Below, one piece after another: positions 5,147 through 30,371 of a stretch of DNA of 35,507 nucleotides. This DNA comes from Promicromonospora citrea. GTDB taxonomy: Bacteria > Actinomycetota > Actinomycetes > Actinomycetales > Cellulomonadaceae. Below the pieces are notes generated by a model. That model was not told the origin of the DNA, did no database searches, and saw nothing but the letters and a program-made list of their open reading frames with translations. Numbering within the stretch: position 1 is the stretch's first letter; each line of letters opens with the position of its first letter. Location of the stretch: contig NZ_JABEMG010000038.1 of the NCBI RefSeq assembly GCF_013004695.1, positions 1 through 35,507 on the forward strand, in the 5' to 3' direction. The position numbers were made by a program, and so were the translations under genes.

Positions 5147-6979
5147 ATGCAGACCCATCAGTACGACGTCGTGATCGTCGGCGCGGGCGGCGCAGGCATG
5201 CGCGCGGCCCTCGAGTCGTCGAAGGAGGCCCGCACCGCGGTGATCTCCAAGCTGTACCCCACCCGCTCCCACACCGGTGCCGCCCAGGGCGGCATGGCCG
5301 CGGCCCTCGCCAACGTCGAGGAGGACAACTGGGAGTGGCACACCTTCGACACGGTCAAGGGCGGCGACTACCTCGTCGACCAGGACGCGGCGGAGATCCT
5401 CGCGAAGGAGGCCATCGAGTCGGTCCTCGACCTCGAGCGGATGGGCCTGCCCTTCAACCGCACGCCCGAGGGCAAGATCGACCAGCGCCGCTTCGGCGGG
5501 CACACGCGTGACCACGGCCAGTCCGCCGTCCGCCGCGCGTGCTACGCGGCCGACCGCACGGGCCACATGATCCTCCAGACGCTCTACCAGAACTGCGTCA
5601 AGCAGGAGGTGGAGTTCTTCAACGAGTTCTACGTGCTCGACCTCATCACCGACCACGACCTCACCACCGAGGAGATCGCGGCGGGCGAGGAGGTCAACGC
5701 GACCGGCGTCGTCGCCTACGACCTCGCCACCGGTGAGATCCACGTGTTCCAGGCCAAGGCGATCATCTTCGCCACCGGCGGCGCAGGCAAGATCTTCAAG
5801 ACCACCTCGAACGCCCACACCCTCACGGGTGACGGCATGGCCCTGGCCTACCGCCGCGGCCTGCCGCTGGAGGACATGGAGTTCTTCCAGTTCCACCCGA
5901 CAGGCCTCGCGGGCCTCGGCATCCTCCTGTCGGAGGCCGCCCGCGGCGAGGGCGGCATCCTGCGCAACGCCGACGGCGAGCGCTTCATGGAGCGGTACGC
6001 CCCCACCATCAAGGACCTCGCGCCGCGCGACATCGTCGCCCGGTCGATGGCCAACGAGGTGCGCGAGGGCCGCGGCGCCGGCCCGAACAAGGACTACGTG
6101 CTGCTCGACCTGACGCACCTCGAGCCCGCGCACATCGACGCGAAGCTCCCGGACATCACCGAGTTCGCGCGCACCTACCTCGGCATCGAGCCGTACACGG
6201 AGCCCGTCCCCGTCTACCCGACGGCGCACTACGCGATGGGCGGCGTGCCGACCAACGTGCAGGGCGAGGTGCTGCGCGACGGCGTCAACGTCGTCAAGGG
6301 CCTGTACGCCGCCGGCGAGGTCGCGTGCGTGTCGGTGCACGGGTCCAACCGCCTCGGCACCAACTCGCTGCTCGACATCAACGTCTTCGGCAAGCGCTCG
6401 GGTCGTGCGGCCGCCGCGTACGCCAAGACCGCGTCGTTCCACGAGCTGCCCGAGAACCCCGCCGAGCGCGTGGTCGCGCAGCTCGAGGAGATGCGCAACC
6501 GCCCGGACGGCGAGCGCGTCGCGGACATCCGCAAGGCGCTGCAGGAGACCATGGACCTCAACGCCCAGGTGTTCCGCACGGGCGAGTCCCTGAACCAGGC
6601 CCTGTCCGACATCCGCGAGCTGCAGAAGCGCTACCGCAACGCGTCGGTGCAGGACAAGGGCAAGCTCTTCAACACCGACCTGCTGGAGGCCATCGAGCTC
6701 GGCTTCCTGCTCGACATCGCCGAGGTCACCGTGGTCGCGGCGATCAACCGCAAGGAGTCGCGCGGCGGTCACTACCGCGAGGACTTCCCGCAGCGCGACG
6801 ACTCGAACTACATGCTGCACACGATGGCCTACCGCCGACCGCCGGAGGCCTCCGACAAGGCCGAGGGTCACGTGAAGGGCTACTTCGACCACGTCGAGCA
6901 GTTCGACGGCTACAAGGTCGTCCTGGGCTCGAAGCCCGTCATCCAGACCCGGTACGAGCCGATGGAGCGTAAGTACTGA
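5147..6979 (+). CDS. sdhA: Succinate dehydrogenase flavoprotein subunit SdhA
   Basis: A 610-residue flavoprotein that oxidises succinate to fumarate on the cytoplasmic side of complex II. The N terminus shows the FAD Rossmann motif [10 protein letters not shown] (residues 11-20) and [12 protein letters not shown], where His42 is the expected covalent FAD attachment site. Active-site motifs follow: FQFHPTGL, the arginine-rich ARGEGG region, and TAHYAMGGV. The C-terminal region has [15 protein letters not shown], typical of SdhA/FrdA. Length is normal for the family. AGGAGG lies at 5130-5135, 11 nt before the ATG. Its TGA overlaps the sdhB ATG by one base (ATGA). Confidence 0.97.
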
Positions 6980-7737
6980 TGACTGCCACTCTCGAAGCCG
7001 ACGCACCGTCCGCCGCGGGCGAGATCCCCTCGTTCACGGTCACGCTGCGGGTCCGGCGGTTCAACCCCGAGGTGTCCGACGAGGCCACCTGGCAGGACTT
7101 CACCGTCGAGGCGCACGGCACCGACCGCATCCTCGACGCCCTGCACAAGATCAAGTGGGACGACGACGGCTCGCTCACGTTCCGCCGGTCGTGCGCGCAC
7201 GGCGTGTGCGGCTCGGACGCGATGCGGATCAACGGCCGCAACCGTCTCGCCTGCAAGACGCTGCTCAAGGACGTCAACCCCGACAAGCCGATCACCGTCG
7301 AGCCCATCAAGGGCCTGCCCGTGGTCAAGGACCTCGTGGTCGACATGGAGCCGTTCTTCGCCTCCTACCGCGAGATGATGCCGTTCCTCATCACGTCGGG
7401 CAACGAGCCGTCGCGCGAGCGCTACCAGTCCCCCGAGGACCGCGCCCGCTTCGACGACACGACCAAGTGCATCCTGTGCGCCGCGTGCACGTCGTCCTGC
7501 CCGGTGTTCTGGACGGACGGCCAGTACTTCGGCCCGGCCGCGATCGTCAACGCGCACCGCTTCATCTTCGACAGCCGTGACGAGGGTGGCTCGCAGCGCC
7601 TCGAGATCCTCAACGACAAGGAGGGCGTGTGGCGCTGCCGCACGACCTTCAACTGCACCGAGGCGTGCCCCCGCGGCATCGAGGTCACGAAGGCCATCCA
7701 GGAGGTCAAGCGCGCGATGATCACCCGCGCCTTCTGA
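6979..7737 (+). CDS. sdhB: Succinate dehydrogenase iron-sulfur subunit SdhB
   Basis: A 252-residue electron-transfer subunit carrying three clusters from FAD to quinone. The [2Fe-2S] ligands are Cys72, Cys77, Asp80 and Cys92 in SCAHGVCGSD...LAC; Asp at the third position also occurs in the E. coli enzyme. The [4Fe-4S] cluster uses Cys164, Cys167 and Cys170 (CILCAAC) with Cys230. The [3Fe-4S] cluster uses Cys174, Cys220 and Cys226 (WRCRTTFNC). It is the last gene of the operon. The stop codon is followed at once by the 16-bp-period inverted-repeat element, which probably terminates transcription. Confidence 0.97.
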   Translation: MTATLEADAPSAAGEIPSFTVTLRVRRFNPEVSDEATWQDFTVEAHGTDRILDALHKIKWDDDGSLTFRRSCAHGVCGSDAMRINGRNRLACKTLLKDVNPDKPITVEPIKGLPVVKDLVVDMEPFFASYREMMPFLITSGNEPSRERYQSPEDRARFDDTTKCILCAACTSSCPVFWTDGQYFGPAAIVNAHRFIFDSRDEGGSQRLEILNDKEGVWRCRTTFNCTEACPRGIEVTKAIQEVKRAMITRAF

Positions 7738-7860
7738 CCCCGCCGAGGTAGTCACCTGGCGAGGTAGTCACGTAGCGAGGTAGTCATCGGGCAGGTGACT
7801 ACCTCGCTACATGACTACCTCGCCAGGTGACTACCTCGCCACGTGACTACCTCGGCGGGG
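7738..7860. repeat. 16-bp-period inverted-repeat element, copy 1 (between sdhB and yihY)
   Basis: Three direct copies of GAGGTAGTCA start at 7745, 7761 and 7777, and four inverted copies (TGACTACCTC) start at 7796, 7812, 7828 and 7844; every step is 16 bp. The block 7745-7786 is the reverse complement of 7796-7837 with one mismatch in 42 bp, so a very long hairpin with a 9-nt loop can form. A second pairing register joins CCCCGCC plus the first unit (7738-7755) to the last unit plus GGCGGGG (7843-7860), 18 bp perfect. The element starts directly after the sdhB TGA. The yihY stop codon (TAG on the minus strand, 7849-7847) lies inside the last inverted unit. A second copy is at 19834-19977. Bidirectional terminator function is inference. 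Confidence 0.9.
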
Positions 7861-8722
7861 CGGGGTTGGACATCCAGGCGCAGGTCAGGAGCAGGGCGCG
7901 TGCCAGGAGGTTGACCAGCACGAGGATCGTGACCACCACGGCGAACGACGCCAGCAGCGCGTTGCGTGACGCCGCCTCGGTGACCAGCTCCGTGCCGAGG
8001 TAGCGCAGCCCGCCGGCCAGGACGCCGACCACCAGCGCACCGCCCACCAGGTCGCGCCGCGCAGGGCGCACGCCGCCCACCCACCGCACGACGGCGGCCA
8101 CCACCGCCGCGTCGAGCAGCAGCGTCACCAGCGCGCCGCCCGCGCGCACGGCGAACGACACCACACCGCCGTCCAGGCCGAGCGACTCCAGCACCCAGGG
8201 CACCGCCGCGGCCACCGCCACGCTCGACGCCGCGGTGACGAGCACGCCGACGCCCAGCAGCACGAAGCCCAGGAGCTGCCGCAGCCGCTCGGTGACCAGG
8301 TTCCCGGCGCCGTCCGTCTCGCCGAACATCGCGCGCACCGAGCTGCGCAGCGCCCCCATGAACCCCGTCGCCGACCAGAGCAGCACGAGGGCGGCGACGA
8401 CCGACGTCCAGCTCAGCCCCGTGGACAGCACGAGGTCCGACGGCGCCAGCACACCCCCGCCGCCGGTGTCCACCAGCCCGGGCAGCCAGGTGTCCACCTC
8501 CGTGAGGACGGCGTCGCGCAGGGCCGCGTCGCCGCCGAGCACCCGCACGAGGATCGTCCAGCCGATGGCGAGGGCGGCGAACAGCGAGAACAGGGCCGCG
8601 TACGCCATGCCGCCGCTGAGGACGGGTCCGTTGGCGGTGGTGAACCGCTCGAGCGCCCGGGCGGGGCGCGTCGCCTGCCAGCGCGCCCACAGCGCCGTGC
8701 CGAGCTCGATCAGCCGCTTCAT
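7847..8722 (-). CDS. YihY/BrkB family inner-membrane protein
   Basis: A 291-residue polytopic membrane protein of the YihY/virulence factor BrkB family, once misnamed RNase BN; its biochemical role is not established. It shows about six hydrophobic segments, including AYAALFSLFAALAIGWTI, VVAALVLLWSATGF, a long segment around LLGFVLLGVGVLVTAASSVAV, and a C-terminal LASFAVVVTILVLVNLLARA. The ATG at 8722 has no Shine-Dalgarno but TAGGCT lies 7 nt upstream, so a leaderless transcript is likely. The last residues (PAPPR) and the TAG stop are encoded by the end of the repeat element, so the element has shaped this C terminus. It is convergent with sdhB. Confidence 0.88.
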   Translation of the reverse strand: MKRLIELGTALWARWQATRPARALERFTTANGPVLSGGMAYAALFSLFAALAIGWTILVRVLGGDAALRDAVLTEVDTWLPGLVDTGGGGVLAPSDLVLSTGLSWTSVVAALVLLWSATGFMGALRSSVRAMFGETDGAGNLVTERLRQLLGFVLLGVGVLVTAASSVAVAAAVPWVLESLGLDGGVVSFAVRAGGALVTLLLDAAVVAAVVRWVGGVRPARRDLVGGALVVGVLAGGLRYLGTELVTEAASRNALLASFAVVVTILVLVNLLARALLLTCAWMSNPAPPR

Positions 8723-18885: not shown

Positions 18886-19836
18886 ATGGCACTCGTGGCC
18901 GAGGTTGCCCCGCCTCCCGCCGCACCCCGGCGCCCGGTCCGGCGCGCCCTCCGGTACGTGGTCGCGATCGCGTCGGTGTGCGCGGTGGCGACCGTCGGCG
19001 TCGTCGTCGGGCTCAACCGCCTGACGGGCGGCGGGCCCGTCACCGAGCGGTGCACCGCGGAGCTCGACGGGTCGGACTGGTTCCTCTCCCCCGACCAGGC
19101 CGACAACGCCGCGCTCGTGGCCGGCACGGCCGTCGCCCGCGGGCTGCCCGCCCGGGCCACGACGATCGGCCTGGCCACGGCCCTGCAGGAGTCGAAGCTC
19201 ATCAACATCGACCACGGTGACCGGGACTCCGTGGGCCTGTTCCAGCAGCGGCCGTCCCAGGGCTGGGGCACCGCCGAGCAGATCATGGACCCCGTGTACT
19301 CGGTCAACGCGTTCTACGACGTGCTCGTCGAGGTCGAGGGCTACGAGGACATGGCCGTCACGGACGCCGCGCAGACGGTCCAGCGGTCGGCCTACCCCCA
19401 GGCGTACGCGCAGCACGAGATGCGCTCCCGGGCCTGGGCGTCCGCCCTCACCGGCAACTCCCGCGGCGTGCTGTCGTGCGAGCTCGGTCCGGTCGCGGAC
19501 GCCGACCAGCGGGCGCCCGAGGCCGCACGGGACACGGTGGCCGGCCGGCTGGGCCGGGACCTCGGGCTCGCGCCGGCGACCGACGGGGCGGCCGAGACCA
19601 GGCAGGACCCGGCGTCGTCGGCCGTGACCGTGGACGCGACGCCGCTCACGCCCGACGACCCCGAGCGCGGCGCGTGGGCGACGGCCCAGTGGGCGGTCGC
19701 CACCGCCAAGGCGACGCAGGCGATCGAGGTGCGCGTGGCCGACCAGGTGTGGCTCCGCGAGGAGGCCGCGTGGCTCCCGGCGGAGAGCCCGCTGCCCCCG
19801 GGCCAGGTCCGCATCGTCGCCGACGCATCCGAGTAA
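18886..19836 (+). CDS. Membrane-anchored protein with lysozyme-like region, function unknown
   Basis: A 316-residue protein with a cytoplasmic Pro/Arg-rich N terminus, one transmembrane helix (about 23-43) and a large extracytoplasmic part. Residues about 65-170 contain GLATALQESKL and DSVGLFQQRPSQGWG, resembling a lysozyme/transglycosylase-type fold with Glu102 as a candidate acid; this resemblance is by eye. Similar actinobacterial proteins are often listed as hypothetical, or wrongly as heavy-metal transporters. The C-terminal about 80 residues are Ala/Asp-rich. The start ATG 18886 has GAGGAAG 5 nt upstream. It follows dapD by 47 bp on the same strand, and a role in cell-wall metabolism would fit, but this is inference. 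Confidence 0.8.
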   Translation: MALVAEVAPPPAAPRRPVRRALRYVVAIASVCAVATVGVVVGLNRLTGGGPVTERCTAELDGSDWFLSPDQADNAALVAGTAVARGLPARATTIGLATALQESKLINIDHGDRDSVGLFQQRPSQGWGTAEQIMDPVYSVNAFYDVLVEVEGYEDMAVTDAAQTVQRSAYPQAYAQHEMRSRAWASALTGNSRGVLSCELGPVADADQRAPEAARDTVAGRLGRDLGLAPATDGAAETRQDPASSAVTVDATPLTPDDPERGAWATAQWAVATAKATQAIEVRVADQVWLREEAAWLPAESPLPPGQVRIVADASE

Positions 19837-19977
19837 CCCCGCCCCGCCGAGGTAGTCACTTGGCGAGGTAGTCACGTAGCGAAGTAGTCACCCGGCGCGC
19901 GCCAGGTGACTACCTCGCCCCATGACTACCTCGCCAGGTGACTGCCTCGCCACGTGACTACCTCGGCGGCGGGGTTA
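19834..19977. repeat. 16-bp-period inverted-repeat element, copy 2 (between membrane protein gene and oppDF)
   Basis: Same design as copy 1. Direct GAGGTAGTCA units begin at 19849, 19865 and 19881 (the third is GAAGTAGTCA); inverted units begin at 19907, 19923, 19939 (TGACTGCCTC) and 19955, all 16 bp apart. The loop holds the palindrome GGCGCGCGCC. The outer arms extend into the neighbours: TAACCCCGCC on the left begins with the TAA stop of the upstream gene, and CGGGGTTA on the right ends with the complement of the oppDF TAA stop. The arm AACCCCGCCCCGCCGAGG, joined directly to a unit, is shared with the reverse complement of the right end of copy 1. Confidence 0.9.
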
Positions 19978-21792
19978 GTTGCCGGCGTCGGTCATGAAGC
20001 CGCCGAGGCCCGAGGCGTTGCCGCCCTCGTCCTGGCGCGGCTGCGGTCGCTCGTAGTCGTCCTCGACGTGCAGCTCGGTGACGTCGTCGCCGAGCTGGGC
20101 CAGCAGGGCGTGCCGGGCCTCGCGACGTCGGCGCTGCTCCAGGGGCTCCGGCACGGGCGCCGCGGCGATGAGCCGCTGCGTGTACTCCTCGCGGGGGTGG
20201 TGCAGCACCTCCTCGCGCGGGCCCTGCTCCACGATGCGGCCGTTCTGCAGCACCACCACGCGGTGGGCGAGCAGGTCGATCACCGCGAGGTCGTGGCTCA
20301 CGAACAGGCACGCGAACTTGTACCGCTCCTGCAGCGCCGTGAACATCTTCAGCACGTTGGCCTGCACCGACACGTCGAGGGCCGACGTCGGCTCGTCCGC
20401 CACCAGCAGCTCGGGGTCGAGCGTGAGGGCGCGGGCGATGCTGACCCGCTGCCGCTGGCCGCCCGAGAGCTCGTGCGGGTAGCGGTTGTAGACGCTGCGC
20501 GGCAGCTCGACGGCGTCGAGCAGCTCGAGCACGCGGCGGCGGCGGGACTTGTCGTCGCCTTCCTTGTGCACCACGAGCGGCTCGGCGATGACGTCACCGA
20601 TCGGCAGGCGCGGGTTGAGCGAGGACGCCGGGTCCTGGAAGACCACGCCGATGCGCCGGCGCATGGCCTTGAGCTCCTTGCCGCGCATCTTCCTGAAGTC
20701 GTTGCCGAGCAGCGACACCGAGCCGGACGCGGCGGGGATGAGACCCAGCGCGCACTTCGCGATGGTCGACTTGCCGGAGCCCGACTCCCCCACGAGACCG
20801 ACGATCTCGCCCTGCGCCACCGACAGCGTGATGTCGTCGCACGCGCGGAACGTCGGCTTGCCGACGCGGCGGTACTCGATGACGAGGTTGCGCAGGTCGA
20901 GGGCCGGCAGGTCCTCCGGGGCCGCCGTCACGGCAGCCACGTCGCCGAACTGGCCGGGGCCCGCACCCAGGTGCGGCACGGCGGCGAGCAGGCGCTTGGT
21001 GTACTCGTGGCGGGGGTGGTTGAGCACCTGGTCCGCCGTGCCCGTCTCGACGAGGTCGCCCTTGAGCATGACGGCGACGCGGTCGGCCATGTCCGCCACG
21101 ACGCCCATGTTGTGGGTGATGAGCAGGATGCCGGTGTTCAGCTTGTCCTTGAGCGAGCGCAGCAGGTCGAGGATCTCGGCCTGCACGGTGACGTCGAGCG
21201 CCGTCGTCGGCTCGTCCGCGATGATCACCTTGGGGTCGCACGCGATGGCCATGGCGATGACGACGCGCTGCCGCTGACCGCCCGAGAGCTCGTGCGGGTA
21301 CTGCTTGAGCCGGCGCTCCGGCTCGGGGATGCCCACCATGGCGAGGAGCTCGGCGGCGCGCGCCGTGGCCTGCTTGCCGAAGGCGATGCCGTGCAGCTGG
21401 AGGCCCTCGGTGAGCTGGTCGCCGATGGTGAGCACCGGGTTGAGCGCCGTCATCGGCTCCTGGAACACCATGGCGACGTCGTTGCCTCGCATGTCGCGCA
21501 GCGCCTTGCCGTCGAGGGCGTTCACCGTCTTGTCGCCGACGCGCACGGTGCCGTTGATCCGCGCGTTGCGCGGCAGCAGGCCCAGCGCGGTCATCGACGT
21601 GACCGACTTGCCGGAGCCGGACTCGCCCACGAGCGCGACGACCTCACCGGGGCGGACCTCGAGGTCGATGCCCTTGACCGCGTGCACGTCGCCGAACTCG
21701 GTCTTGAAGGTGACGTCGAGGCCCTCGAAGGAGAGGACCGCGTCGCCGGTCGCGGAAGCCGGACCGGGCGTGCTGATGTCGAGAGTGGTCAT
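19975..21792 (-). CDS. Oligopeptide/dipeptide ABC transporter, fused tandem ATPases (OppD-OppF)
   Basis: A 605-residue protein with two complete ABC nucleotide-binding domains of the oligopeptide type, energising the OppABC importer. The first (about 20-275) has Walker [12 protein letters not shown], signature LSGGQRQRV and Walker [12 protein letters not shown]; the second (about 300-550) has [12 protein letters not shown], a second LSGGQRQRV and [12 protein letters not shown]. Fusion of OppD- and OppF-like halves is common in actinobacteria. The C-terminal 50 residues are acidic. Its ATG lies 2 nt after the oppC stop, so it is coupled to the permease. Its TAA is the outermost part of repeat copy 2. 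Confidence 0.94.
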
Positions 21793-28538: not shown

Positions 28539-30371
28539 TCAGCCCTTCGCGACGGCGGGACCGTCGCCGGCCGGGACCCCGTCGACCGGGCTGCCGTCCC
28601 CGCCGTCGTCGGGCGTCGCCGCCGACGTCGCGAGCTCGAACGGCTCGCCGTCGTGCTTCTCGACACCGGTCTCGACCGTCTCGGACAGCACCTGCACCGC
28701 CAGCGCGCGCTTGAGCACGAGCGGGTCGTTGGACAGGTCCTTCCACAGCGCGACGCACAGCACGAGCATGACCACGACGAACGGCAGCGCCGAGACGATC
28801 GTGATGTTCTTCAGACCGTTGAGGGCGCTGGCCGGGTCGTCGCCGCCGGCGAGCAGCATCGCCGCCGCGACCGCGCCGGTGCTCACGCCCCAGAAGATCA
28901 CGGCCTTCTTGCTCGGCTCCTCCGCGCCGTTCTCGGACAGCCCGCCCATGATGATCGAGGCGGAGTCGGCGCCCGTGACGAAGAAGATCGCGACGAGCAC
29001 GACCGCCAGCACCATGAGCGCGAGCCCGACCCAGCCCGGCACGGGCAGCGCGCCGAGGGTCTGGAAGAAGATGAGGTCGAAGTTGATGTCGGCCCCGCCC
29101 TCACCGATCGCCGCGAGCGCCGCGCCGGTGGCCTGCGCCTGCTCGGCGCGCTCCTGCAGGCCGATGGCGCCGCCGCCGAAGATCGCGAACCAGACGGTCG
29201 AGACGACCGACGGGACGAGCAGCACGCCGGTGACGAACTGGCGCACGGTGCGGCCGCGCGAGATGCGGGCGATGAACGGGCCGACGAACGGCGTCCACGA
29301 CACCCACCAGGCCCAGTAGAAGATGGTCCAGGACCCCATCCAGTCGGACAGGCTCTGGTCGCCGGACGCCGCGGTGCGCGAGGCCATGTCGGGCAGGTCG
29401 CCGACGAAGGCGCCGATCGAGGCGGGGAGCACGTTGAGGATGAACAGCGTGGGCCCGCCGACGAAGACGATGACCGCGAGCAGCAGCGCCAGCCACATGT
29501 TGGCGTTGGACAGCCACTGGATGCCGCGCTCGATGCCCGACACGGCAGACAGCACGAACAGGCAGGTCAGGACGGCGATGATGAGGACGAGCGTGACCGT
29601 GCCGACCGACTCCATGATGCCGGAGTGCTGGATGCCGCCGCCGATCTGCAGGGCGCCGAGGCCCAGGGAGCAGGCGGAGCCGAAGAGGGTCGCGAGGATC
29701 GCGAGGATGTTGATGACGCGCCCGCCGGTGCCGTTGACCGCCTTGCGGCCGAACAGCGACGTGAACATCGAGCTGAAGAGCTGCGAGCGCCCGAGGCGGT
29801 AGGTGCCGTAGGCCATGCCGAGGCCCACGATGGCGTACATCGCCCACGGGTAGATGGTCCAGTGGAACAGCGTCTGGCCCATGGCGGTGGACGCGGCGGC
29901 GGGCGTCGAGCCCTCGACGGTGCCGGGCGGCGGCGCCATGTAGAAGTAGAGGGGCTCGCCGACGCCGTAGAACATGAGGCCGATGCCCATGCCGGTCGCG
30001 AACATCATCGCGATCCAGGAGGGGGTGGAGTACTGCGGCTTCTCGCCGTCCTGCCCGAGGGGGATCTTGCCGAAGCGGCCGAGCGCCACGACGATCACGA
30101 AGACGGCGAAGATGGTGGCGGCGATGACGAACAGCCAGCCGAAGTTGCCCAGGACGCCGGTGAGGGCGGAGTCGGCCACCGCGCCGAGGGTCTCGGAGCT
30201 GACGAAGCCCCACACGATGAAGGCCAGGGCGATGAGGCCCGCGACGCCGAAGACGACGCGGTCGGTACCGACGCGCTGGTCCTGGGGCCCGCGCGCTGCT
30301 CGCTCGACGCGGTGCGCGGCACGCTGCACGCGGCTGACGAGGGTCTTGGTGGTCTCTGAGGTAGTCATCAC
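28539..30371 (-). CDS. BCCT family betaine/carnitine/choline transporter
   Basis: A 610-residue secondary transporter of the BCCT family, most like glycine betaine/choline uptake systems used in osmoprotection. About twelve hydrophobic helices are visible. Two diagnostic stretches are GMGIGLMFYGVGEPLYF (the GMGIG form typical of Na+-coupled BetP-type carriers rather than the GIGIS of CaiT) and WAWWVSWTPFVGPFIARISR with RGRTVRQF, the family signature. The N- and C-terminal cytoplasmic tails (about 35 and 90 residues) are charged and may sense osmolarity, as in BetP. The start is GTG 30371 (or ATG 30368), 6 nt after AAAGGAGG. A single repeat unit, GAGGTAGTCA, covers the first codons. Confidence 0.93.
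   Translation of the reverse strand: MMTTSETTKTLVSRVQRAAHRVERAARGPQDQRVGTDRVVFGVAGLIALAFIVWGFVSSETLGAVADSALTGVLGNFGWLFVIAATIFAVFVIVVALGRFGKIPLGQDGEKPQYSTPSWIAMMFATGMGIGLMFYGVGEPLYFYMAPPPGTVEGSTPAAASTAMGQTLFHWTIYPWAMYAIVGLGMAYGTYRLGRSQLFSSMFTSLFGRKAVNGTGGRVINILAILATLFGSACSLGLGALQIGGGIQHSGIMESVGTVTLVLIIAVLTCLFVLSAVSGIERGIQWLSNANMWLALLLAVIVFVGGPTLFILNVLPASIGAFVGDLPDMASRTAASGDQSLSDWMGSWTIFYWAWWVSWTPFVGPFIARISRGRTVRQFVTGVLLVPSVVSTVWFAIFGGGAIGLQERAEQAQATGAALAAIGEGGADINFDLIFFQTLGALPVPGWVGLALMVLAVVLVAIFFVTGADSASIIMGGLSENGAEEPSKKAVIFWGVSTGAVAAAMLLAGGDDPASALNGLKNITIVSALPFVVVMLVLCVALWKDLSNDPLVLKRALAVQVLSETVETGVEKHDGEPFELATSAATPDDGGDGSPVDGVPAGDGPAVAKG
30358..30367 (-). repeat. Solitary GAGGTAGTCA unit at the BCCT start
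   Basis: The same 10-mer as in the two large elements, here alone and inside the first codons (ATG ACT ACC TCA) of the BCCT gene. Probably chance, but the only full unit outside the two elements that I found. Confidence 0.4.

Follow-up and report, generated by a model that had tools for sequence, protein, structure and literature searches.

The array between sdhB and a BrkB-family gene

The window analysed here, a 35,507-nt stretch of Promicromonospora citrea DNA, contains two convergent genes separated by a gap that is a hairpin and almost nothing else (Table 1). From its protein sequence, we take the left gene to be sdhB, which encodes the iron-sulfur subunit of succinate dehydrogenase; the right gene encodes a BrkB-family membrane protein. 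By reading the sequence and scanning it with one mismatch allowed, we found that seven exact GAGGTAGTCA units fill this gap (7738–7860) between the convergent stops, starting at 7745, 7761 and 7777 on the + strand and at 7796, 7812, 7828 and 7844 on the - strand. The initial annotation had placed these three direct and four inverted units on a single 16-bp grid; the units are as it described them, but the step is 16 bp within either arm and 19 across the centre, so the array consists of two grids rather than one. The stop codon of the BrkB-family gene is the TAG of the outermost right-arm unit (7847–7849, - strand).

Table 1 Features at and around the two arrays of the window.
Feature	Position	Strand	Basis or remark
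sdhB, left convergent gene	6979–7737	+	Gene call; full-length relatives in 13 of 13 genus genomes searched
Outer stem base CCCCGCC	7738–7744		Directly 3' of the sdhB stop codon (7735–7737)
Left arm with three GAGGTAGTCA units of 16 bp; spacers CCTGGC and CGTAGC	7745–7786	+	Sequence and scan
Loop and loop-closing bases	7787–7795		Sequence and fold
Right arm: four inverted units	7796–7853	-	Scan
Outer stem base GGCGGGG	7854–7860		Sequence
BrkB-family membrane protein gene, right convergent gene	7847–8722	-	PF03631, E 6.7e-26
Second array: 3 forward and 4 inverted units, 2 of 7 with 1 mismatch	19842–19974		Scan

The arms at 7744–7786 and 7796–7838 are 98% complementary over 43 nt, with one mismatch, in line with the pairing of about 42 bp per side that had been noted at first. 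An alternative register, 7738–7787 with 7811–7860, is 94% complementary over 50 nt. The predicted fold has an MFE of -114.6 kcal/mol on the + strand (z -14.8 against shuffles) and -112.5 on the - strand (z -17.3 against shuffles). The - strand centroid contains an outer 18-bp stem formed with unit 7, and both registers occur among the folds.

Over the whole window, 16 matches to GAGGTAGTCA with at most one mismatch were found against 0.86 expected, and none of 100 shuffles reached 16. The second array is likewise flanked by convergent genes, at 18886–19836 (+) and 19975–21792 (-). A lone match at 30358–30367 is probably due to chance, because it lies at a gene start, where the aligned sequence of the sister genome is ordinary. 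At gathering thresholds, Rfam has no family that matches anywhere in the window, and no phage or plasmid record matched the array.

A large family at gene ends in the source genome

In the source genome (G000, 4.96 Mb in 290 contigs), the two strands together carry 338 exact GAGGTAGTCA units; the reversed control gave 1. The stretches fetched around the arrays contain at least 72 clusters with 374 units at up to two mismatches; these clusters include 304 of the 338 exact units, the other 34 being unplaced. Of the clusters, 46 are face-to-face arrays, 20 are one-armed and 6 are single units, so that 66 have two or more units.

Flanking genes were called with a home-made codon-model caller rather than taken from annotation. 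Apart from two at contig ends, which were left out, 44 face-to-face arrays could be classified: 29 lie between convergent genes, 14 between codirectional genes and 1 between divergent genes. Where a gene pair has no array, the corresponding counts are 51, 318 and 81, which gives an odds ratio of 15 for convergent gaps (29 of 44 against 51 of 450; Fisher P 3e-15). The initial annotation had regarded a family-level role as unlikely if the genome held only two copies with no bias to convergent ends; the unit count and the strong bias clearly rule out that case.

The genes facing these arrays tend to stop shortly before them, with 56 of 96 gene ends in G000 lying 5–25 nt ahead of the first unit. 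Codirectional arrays (n=29, three genomes) follow the upstream stop by a median of 14 nt and precede the next start by a median of 80 nt. The trinucleotide GCC directly precedes the outermost unit at most outer ends: 90 of 112 in G000, 60 of 68 in the sister genome G011 and 20 of 26 in a further congener, G008. At some ends, as at the BrkB-family gene, the TAG of a unit is itself the gene stop: unit 1, 2 or 3 provides it at 17, 3 and 1 of 96 ends in G000, at 9, 3 and 0 of 61 in G011, and at 6, 1 and 0 of 23 in G008.

The one-armed arrays of G000 are distributed over 8 convergent, 5 codirectional and 4 divergent gaps and 3 contig ends. Arrays in divergent gaps are rare (5 of 66), and four of the five are one-armed (L046, L049, L063 and L076), placed on the 5' side of genes; at L049 and L063, the gene concerned additionally has a face-to-face array at its 3' end. 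An operator role for the one-armed divergent arrays was considered and set aside, as Pfam searches of six neighbour proteins gave no common theme (a sugar-binding protein, GPP34, a LacI regulator, a dehydratase, a sub-threshold GH43 and one protein without a match).

Predicted folding separates gaps with arrays from the rest. Among convergent gaps of 20–250 nt in G000, the median z was -10.9 with an array (n=34) and -3.1 without (n=35), and codirectional gaps without an array gave -0.4 (n=183). A run of at least four T within 12 nt beyond the stem was absent from all 226 flanks of three genomes (0 of 132, 0 of 68 and 0 of 26). Measured against a canonical intrinsic terminator, the arrays therefore have the GC-rich hairpin after the stop, as predicted by folding, and lack the U-tract.

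Two dialects of one unit across the genus

A second spelling of the unit, GARRTAGAAC, first became visible at the same gene ends of congeners, where the architecture is unchanged. We distinguish the two dialects by positions 8–10, TCA in GAGGTAGTCA and AAC in the second form. Paired TCA units occur in G000 and in 4 of 12 congeners, and paired AAC units in 9 of 12. The sister genome G011 has no GAGGTAGTCA pair and 191 GARRTAGAAC pairs at the same 16-bp step, the reverse of G000 (185 TCA and 0 AAC pairs). Counted in the same way (TCA/AAC), the other congeners gave 1/242 (G008), 1/94 (G005), 0/72 (G006), 0/39 (G010), 0/10 (G003), 32/8 (G004), 4/1 (G012), 0/1 (G009) and 0/0 (G001, G002 and G007). 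TCA-form loci were found on contigs of Promicromonospora iranensis, P. soli and P. panici. Outside the genus, paired units of either dialect were absent from 46 more distant relatives, and the looser pattern of GARRTAG at a 16-bp step gave one single match among 395 other genomes of the order.

In a two-locus tree, G000 and G011 are sisters, with 93.4% nucleotide identity at those loci. The tree places the TCA-rich pair G004 and G012 among AAC genomes, with several deeper nodes poorly supported; on this placement, either there was more than one change of dialect or the two forms are both ancient.

Shared sites with different spelling

Of 34 arrays sampled in G011, 14 coincide with an array site of G000, 12 of them by both flanking orthologues and 2 by one. 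This sample was drawn with the facing-units pattern from those listed of its 116 matches, one-armed arrays thereby falling outside it. If 750 convergent sites are assumed, chance overlap of the 66 G000 arrays with these 34 would give 3.0 shared sites (P 2e-7), and if 500 are assumed, 4.5 (P 2e-5). At one further G011 array site (L161), a single unit is left in G000. One candidate pair, L153/L052, was rejected as a shared site, since the array of G000 is found on the opposite side of the gene and there is no unit in the matching gap. For G008, 2 of 13 arrays share a G000 site, the sample being the first arrays among the matches listed, on two contigs.

At the sdhB site, the right-hand stop is the TAG of the outermost unit in both G000 and G011, and at one further site shared by the two it is the TAG of unit 2 in both; at the remaining shared sites, the distance from stop to array varies between them. 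The second array of the window (site 2, after the gene at 18886–19836) has counterparts such that arrays are present in 6 of 13 genomes, in AAC form in G008, G003 and G005 and in TCA form in G000, G012 and G004; each array is written in a dialect that occurs in its own genome, and G011 has one degenerate unit. At a third site, G000 and G008 have arrays and G005 has a single unit (G009 had no usable sequence at sites 2 and 3). The G008 array at this site looks like an addition, because it adjoins an apparent older terminator, a hairpin also found in congeners without the array.

Where the array is missing, a hairpin may still be present. Downstream of sdhB, the 11 congeners without an array carry other inverted repeats (z -2.2 to -7.8), so the hairpin is kept there while its sequence turns over. 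The replacement is weaker at the other two sites. For site 2, z is +1.2 in G002, which lacks a hairpin, and -1.5 in G011, whose hairpin is weak; for site 3, eight unit-free genomes gave z values of -1.5 to -2.9 and one gave -9.2.

Uniform units, variable spacers and unequal arms

Within a genome, the units are strikingly alike. In the fetched G011 arrays, positions 8–10 read AAC in 222 of 223 GARRTAG units; in G000 they read TCA in 320 units, TCG in 27, TAC in 14 and ACA in 7, with few others. No array mixing TCA and AAC was found in the fetched stretches of G000, G011 and G008; the P. iranensis array L004 has one AAC amid TCA units. The 4-nt spacer, on the other hand, is polymorphic and drawn from a small set common to both dialects, 134 of 156 G011 spacers being among the ten commonest of G000.

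The initial annotation had drawn attention to two competing pairing registers. Both do occur in the folds of the sdhB array, but the family as a whole does not support the idea that they matter in themselves. Only 10 of 39 arrays in G000 and 12 of 34 in G011 have as many units in one arm as in the other. Spacers facing each other across the stem match at a frequency of 0.56 in G000 (pool 0.51, P 0.03; shuffled order 0.54, P 0.10), 0.64 in G011 (pool 0.46, 0 of 2000; shuffled order 0.62, P 0.26) and 0.58 against 0.59 in G008. Counted from the loop outward, the match in G011 is 0.78, 0.78 and then 0.50; in G000 and G008, the spacers hardly match across the stem. When whole 16-mers are compared with the innermost units included, the match exceeds that of shuffled order in G000 and G011 (0 of 3000 each), though not clearly in G008 (P 0.09); once the innermost units are omitted, neither G000 nor G011 surpasses shuffled order (P 0.10 and 0.19; all these P values are uncorrected over several versions of the comparison). 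Spacer matching as proof of an RNA stem thus had a mixed outcome across the three genomes. Since spacer matching is confined to the neighbourhood of the loop in G011 and slight in G000 and G008, pairing alone does not explain the conservation of the unit, and since outer units do not match beyond shuffled order, it is the unit sequence, and not pairing only, that is kept alike.

A central palindrome of the form GGGGC or AGGGC, then GCTGATCAGC or a similar sequence, then GCCC, recurs in the loops of some arrays of both dialects (L148, L150, L156, L165, L167 and L170 in G011; L029, L075 and L084 in G000), and its stem varies between copies on both sides.

An IS30-like element at the arrays

At six contig ends of G000, an array unit runs directly into the terminus of an insertion sequence. 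One end of this sequence is found at four of them (L034, L039, L052 and L056, on C35, C61, C142 and C227) and what is apparently the other at two (L043 and L062, on C76 and C245). At the latter, a 39-aa reading frame is similar to the C-terminal part of IS30-family transposases, the annotation borne by most of the 12 records listed. The joins read IS|TAGTCAC or IS|CTACCTC, which places the break at the TAG, with an apparent 3-bp TAG duplication. As these sequences come from separate contig ends, we infer both the duplication and the membership of the two ends in one element. The arrays appear to be a target of this IS30-like element and to break the assembly at these points. Neither this element nor the dialects and shared sites could be seen by the initial annotation.

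Comparison with known repeats and terminators

Work on dispersed hairpin repeats in bacteria mostly concerns REPs, whose stem is internal. Literature searches, including searches by the unit sequence, whose matches were judged by title, gave no recognised description of the 16-bp array family among the matches listed, which together with the Rfam result bears out the earlier impression of a repeat without a name. The available text of PMC12306157 and PMC2267715 has nothing on it either.

According to the sections consulted of three papers, REP, BIME and REPIN sequences are dispersed extragenic hairpin repeats with GTAG or CGTC tags and species-specific classes, and in the genomes diagrammed there REPs lie mostly in convergent or codirectional gaps, less than 20 bp from 3' ends (PMC3733652, PMC3116915, PMC3686654). 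REP elements are also described, in the part of the source at hand, as targets of insertion sequences (PMC1525189). The 16-bp arrays resemble REPs in being extragenic, present in many copies and located at gene 3' ends in convergent and codirectional gaps. They differ in construction, since a REP unit is its own stem-loop (stem of 5–13 bp), whereas the 16-bp unit is no palindrome and pairs only between opposed arrays, with head-to-tail order as the rule. The terminal GTAG of REPs is unpaired and more than 90% conserved in most families; the arrays have a GARRTAG core with its TAG paired, and GTAG is not conserved, 92 of 225 units in G011 arrays reading GAGATAG. The text that names GTAG REPs for Proteobacteria, Cyanobacteria, Chloroflexi and the PVC group makes no mention of Actinobacteria (PMC3733652).

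The DNA uptake sequences of Neisseriaceae are similar in another respect. In the portion of the source drawn on here, they form dialects around a conserved core, and inverted pairs of them form terminator-associated hairpins (PMC3630211). The likeness thus extends to a motif of about 10 bp, species dialects, a conserved core and hairpin-forming inverted pairs; uptake sequences, however, number in the thousands within and between genes, unlike the 338 exact units in tandem clusters described here. As to termination, a survey of 13 genomes argues, in the part available, that hairpin termination needs no poly-U (PMC8355165). The hairpin terminators and clusters without a U-tract treated there share with the arrays a strong hairpin soon after the stop codon; as far as that text goes, they are not built of one repeat, whereas the 16-bp unit builds tens of sites with a far longer hairpin.

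What sets the family apart is a hairpin assembled from a non-palindromic tandem unit, together with sister species that differ in spelling at the same gene ends, unmixed in the sampled arrays. One spelling over some 70 scattered sites offers a testable case of genome-wide concerted change in bacteria, and the arrays are candidate two-sided insulators for high-GC actinomycetes.

Interpretation and alternatives

The arrays are a new repeat family of this genus of soil bacteria, and their probable role is to mark the ends of genes and insulate them. With somewhat better than even confidence, we read them as genus-restricted, REP-like dispersed elements that act as two-sided 3'-end hairpins without a U-tract and are homogenised within each genome. 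A two-sided element of this kind fits their position and their strong predicted hairpins. A full element consists of a head-to-tail array of the non-palindromic 16-bp unit facing an inverted array; both convergent RNAs would fold this hairpin at their 3' ends. Such a hairpin might stop RNA polymerase without a U-tract, shield the RNA ends and insulate the gene pair. Slippage would add or remove units by one 16-bp step each, some agent would spread the arrays to gene 3' ends in a REP-like manner, and uniformity of the units within one genome might be maintained either through exchange among its arrays or through a factor, host-encoded or mobile, that recognises the dialect. Such homogenisation within each genome is what we propose to explain why sister species spell the same site differently. 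Several observations fit this reading less well: the lack of T runs beyond the stem, the poor matching of spacers away from the loop, the twenty one-armed clusters of G000, the five arrays in divergent gaps, the weaker replacement at sites 2 and 3, the apparently added G008 array at site 3 and the fact that only 2 of 13 G008 arrays are at G000 sites.

Of the alternatives, a selfish origin is the one we take most seriously, while judging it rather unlikely. The arrays would then be miniature elements moved by an IS30-like or other transposase that prefers gene ends or hairpins, and termination would be incidental. Their restriction to the genus and patchy copy number speak for it (0 pairs in three congeners, then 1, 5, 10, 39, 40, 72, 95, 185, 191 and 243 over the other genomes), as do the apparently added G008 array and the single G005 unit at site 3, and the IS30-like element joined to units at their TAG on six contig ends. 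Yet no terminal repeats, target duplication or source gene were seen for the arrays themselves, the IS30-like element targets the units with no sign of moving them, and codirectional arrays adjoin the upstream stop instead of being scattered through the gap.

It is less probable still, though conceivable, that the unit is the recognition site of a host protein that binds it genome-wide as DNA or RNA, as ComP does with the Neisseriaceae uptake sequences, and that an alteration of that protein led to the switch between TCA and AAC. The near-uniform positions 8–10 in G011, beside polymorphic spacers shared between dialects, would suit such a protein; a sweep from one founder unit is disfavoured by the same spacers, since the spacer would have swept too. 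Against it, uptake sites are scattered and number in the thousands, whereas the units sit together in some 70 arrays; the cognate protein is hypothetical, and G004 has both dialects (32 TCA and 8 AAC pairs). A bolder and more doubtful version is that Promicromonospora marks the 3' ends of chosen genes with a species-specific word, GAGGTAGTCA or GARRTAGAAC, read by a dedicated, co-evolving host factor, such that a change of the factor changes all words in place and leaves the 4-nt spacers polymorphic. If true, it would be a system for marking gene ends that has not been described before.

A translation-stop cassette, in which arrays are kept to halt ribosomes that run past lost or suppressed stops, seems to us quite improbable. 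Because 16 leaves a remainder of 1 when divided by 3, three units do give a TAG in all three frames from either side, the TAG belongs to the GARRTAG core of both dialects, and a unit TAG is the stop at 40 of 180 array-facing gene ends in the G000, G011 and G008 samples. However, the other flanking genes end elsewhere, mostly ahead of the array, two thirds of all periods would cycle the frames equally, and the bias to unit 1 (32:7:1 for units 1, 2 and 3) is not expected from a random-frame safety net. Finally, although several contig ends bear arrays, chance likeness among ordinary intrinsic terminators or an assembly artefact can be dismissed, given the reversed control (338 units against 1), the pairs in separately assembled congeners, some with few contigs, and the different unit of the sister species at shared sites.

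Other repeats at array sites

A long perfect hairpin beginning with ACGTGTCAGAC recurs at L106, L109 and L198 (G006 and G007), at gene ends that carry 16-bp arrays in other congeners. Unrelated short repeats were observed around ACCGACCGAAGTCA after sdhB in G008 (L092) and around ACGAAGTCTGCAGTC at site 3 in G011 (L190).
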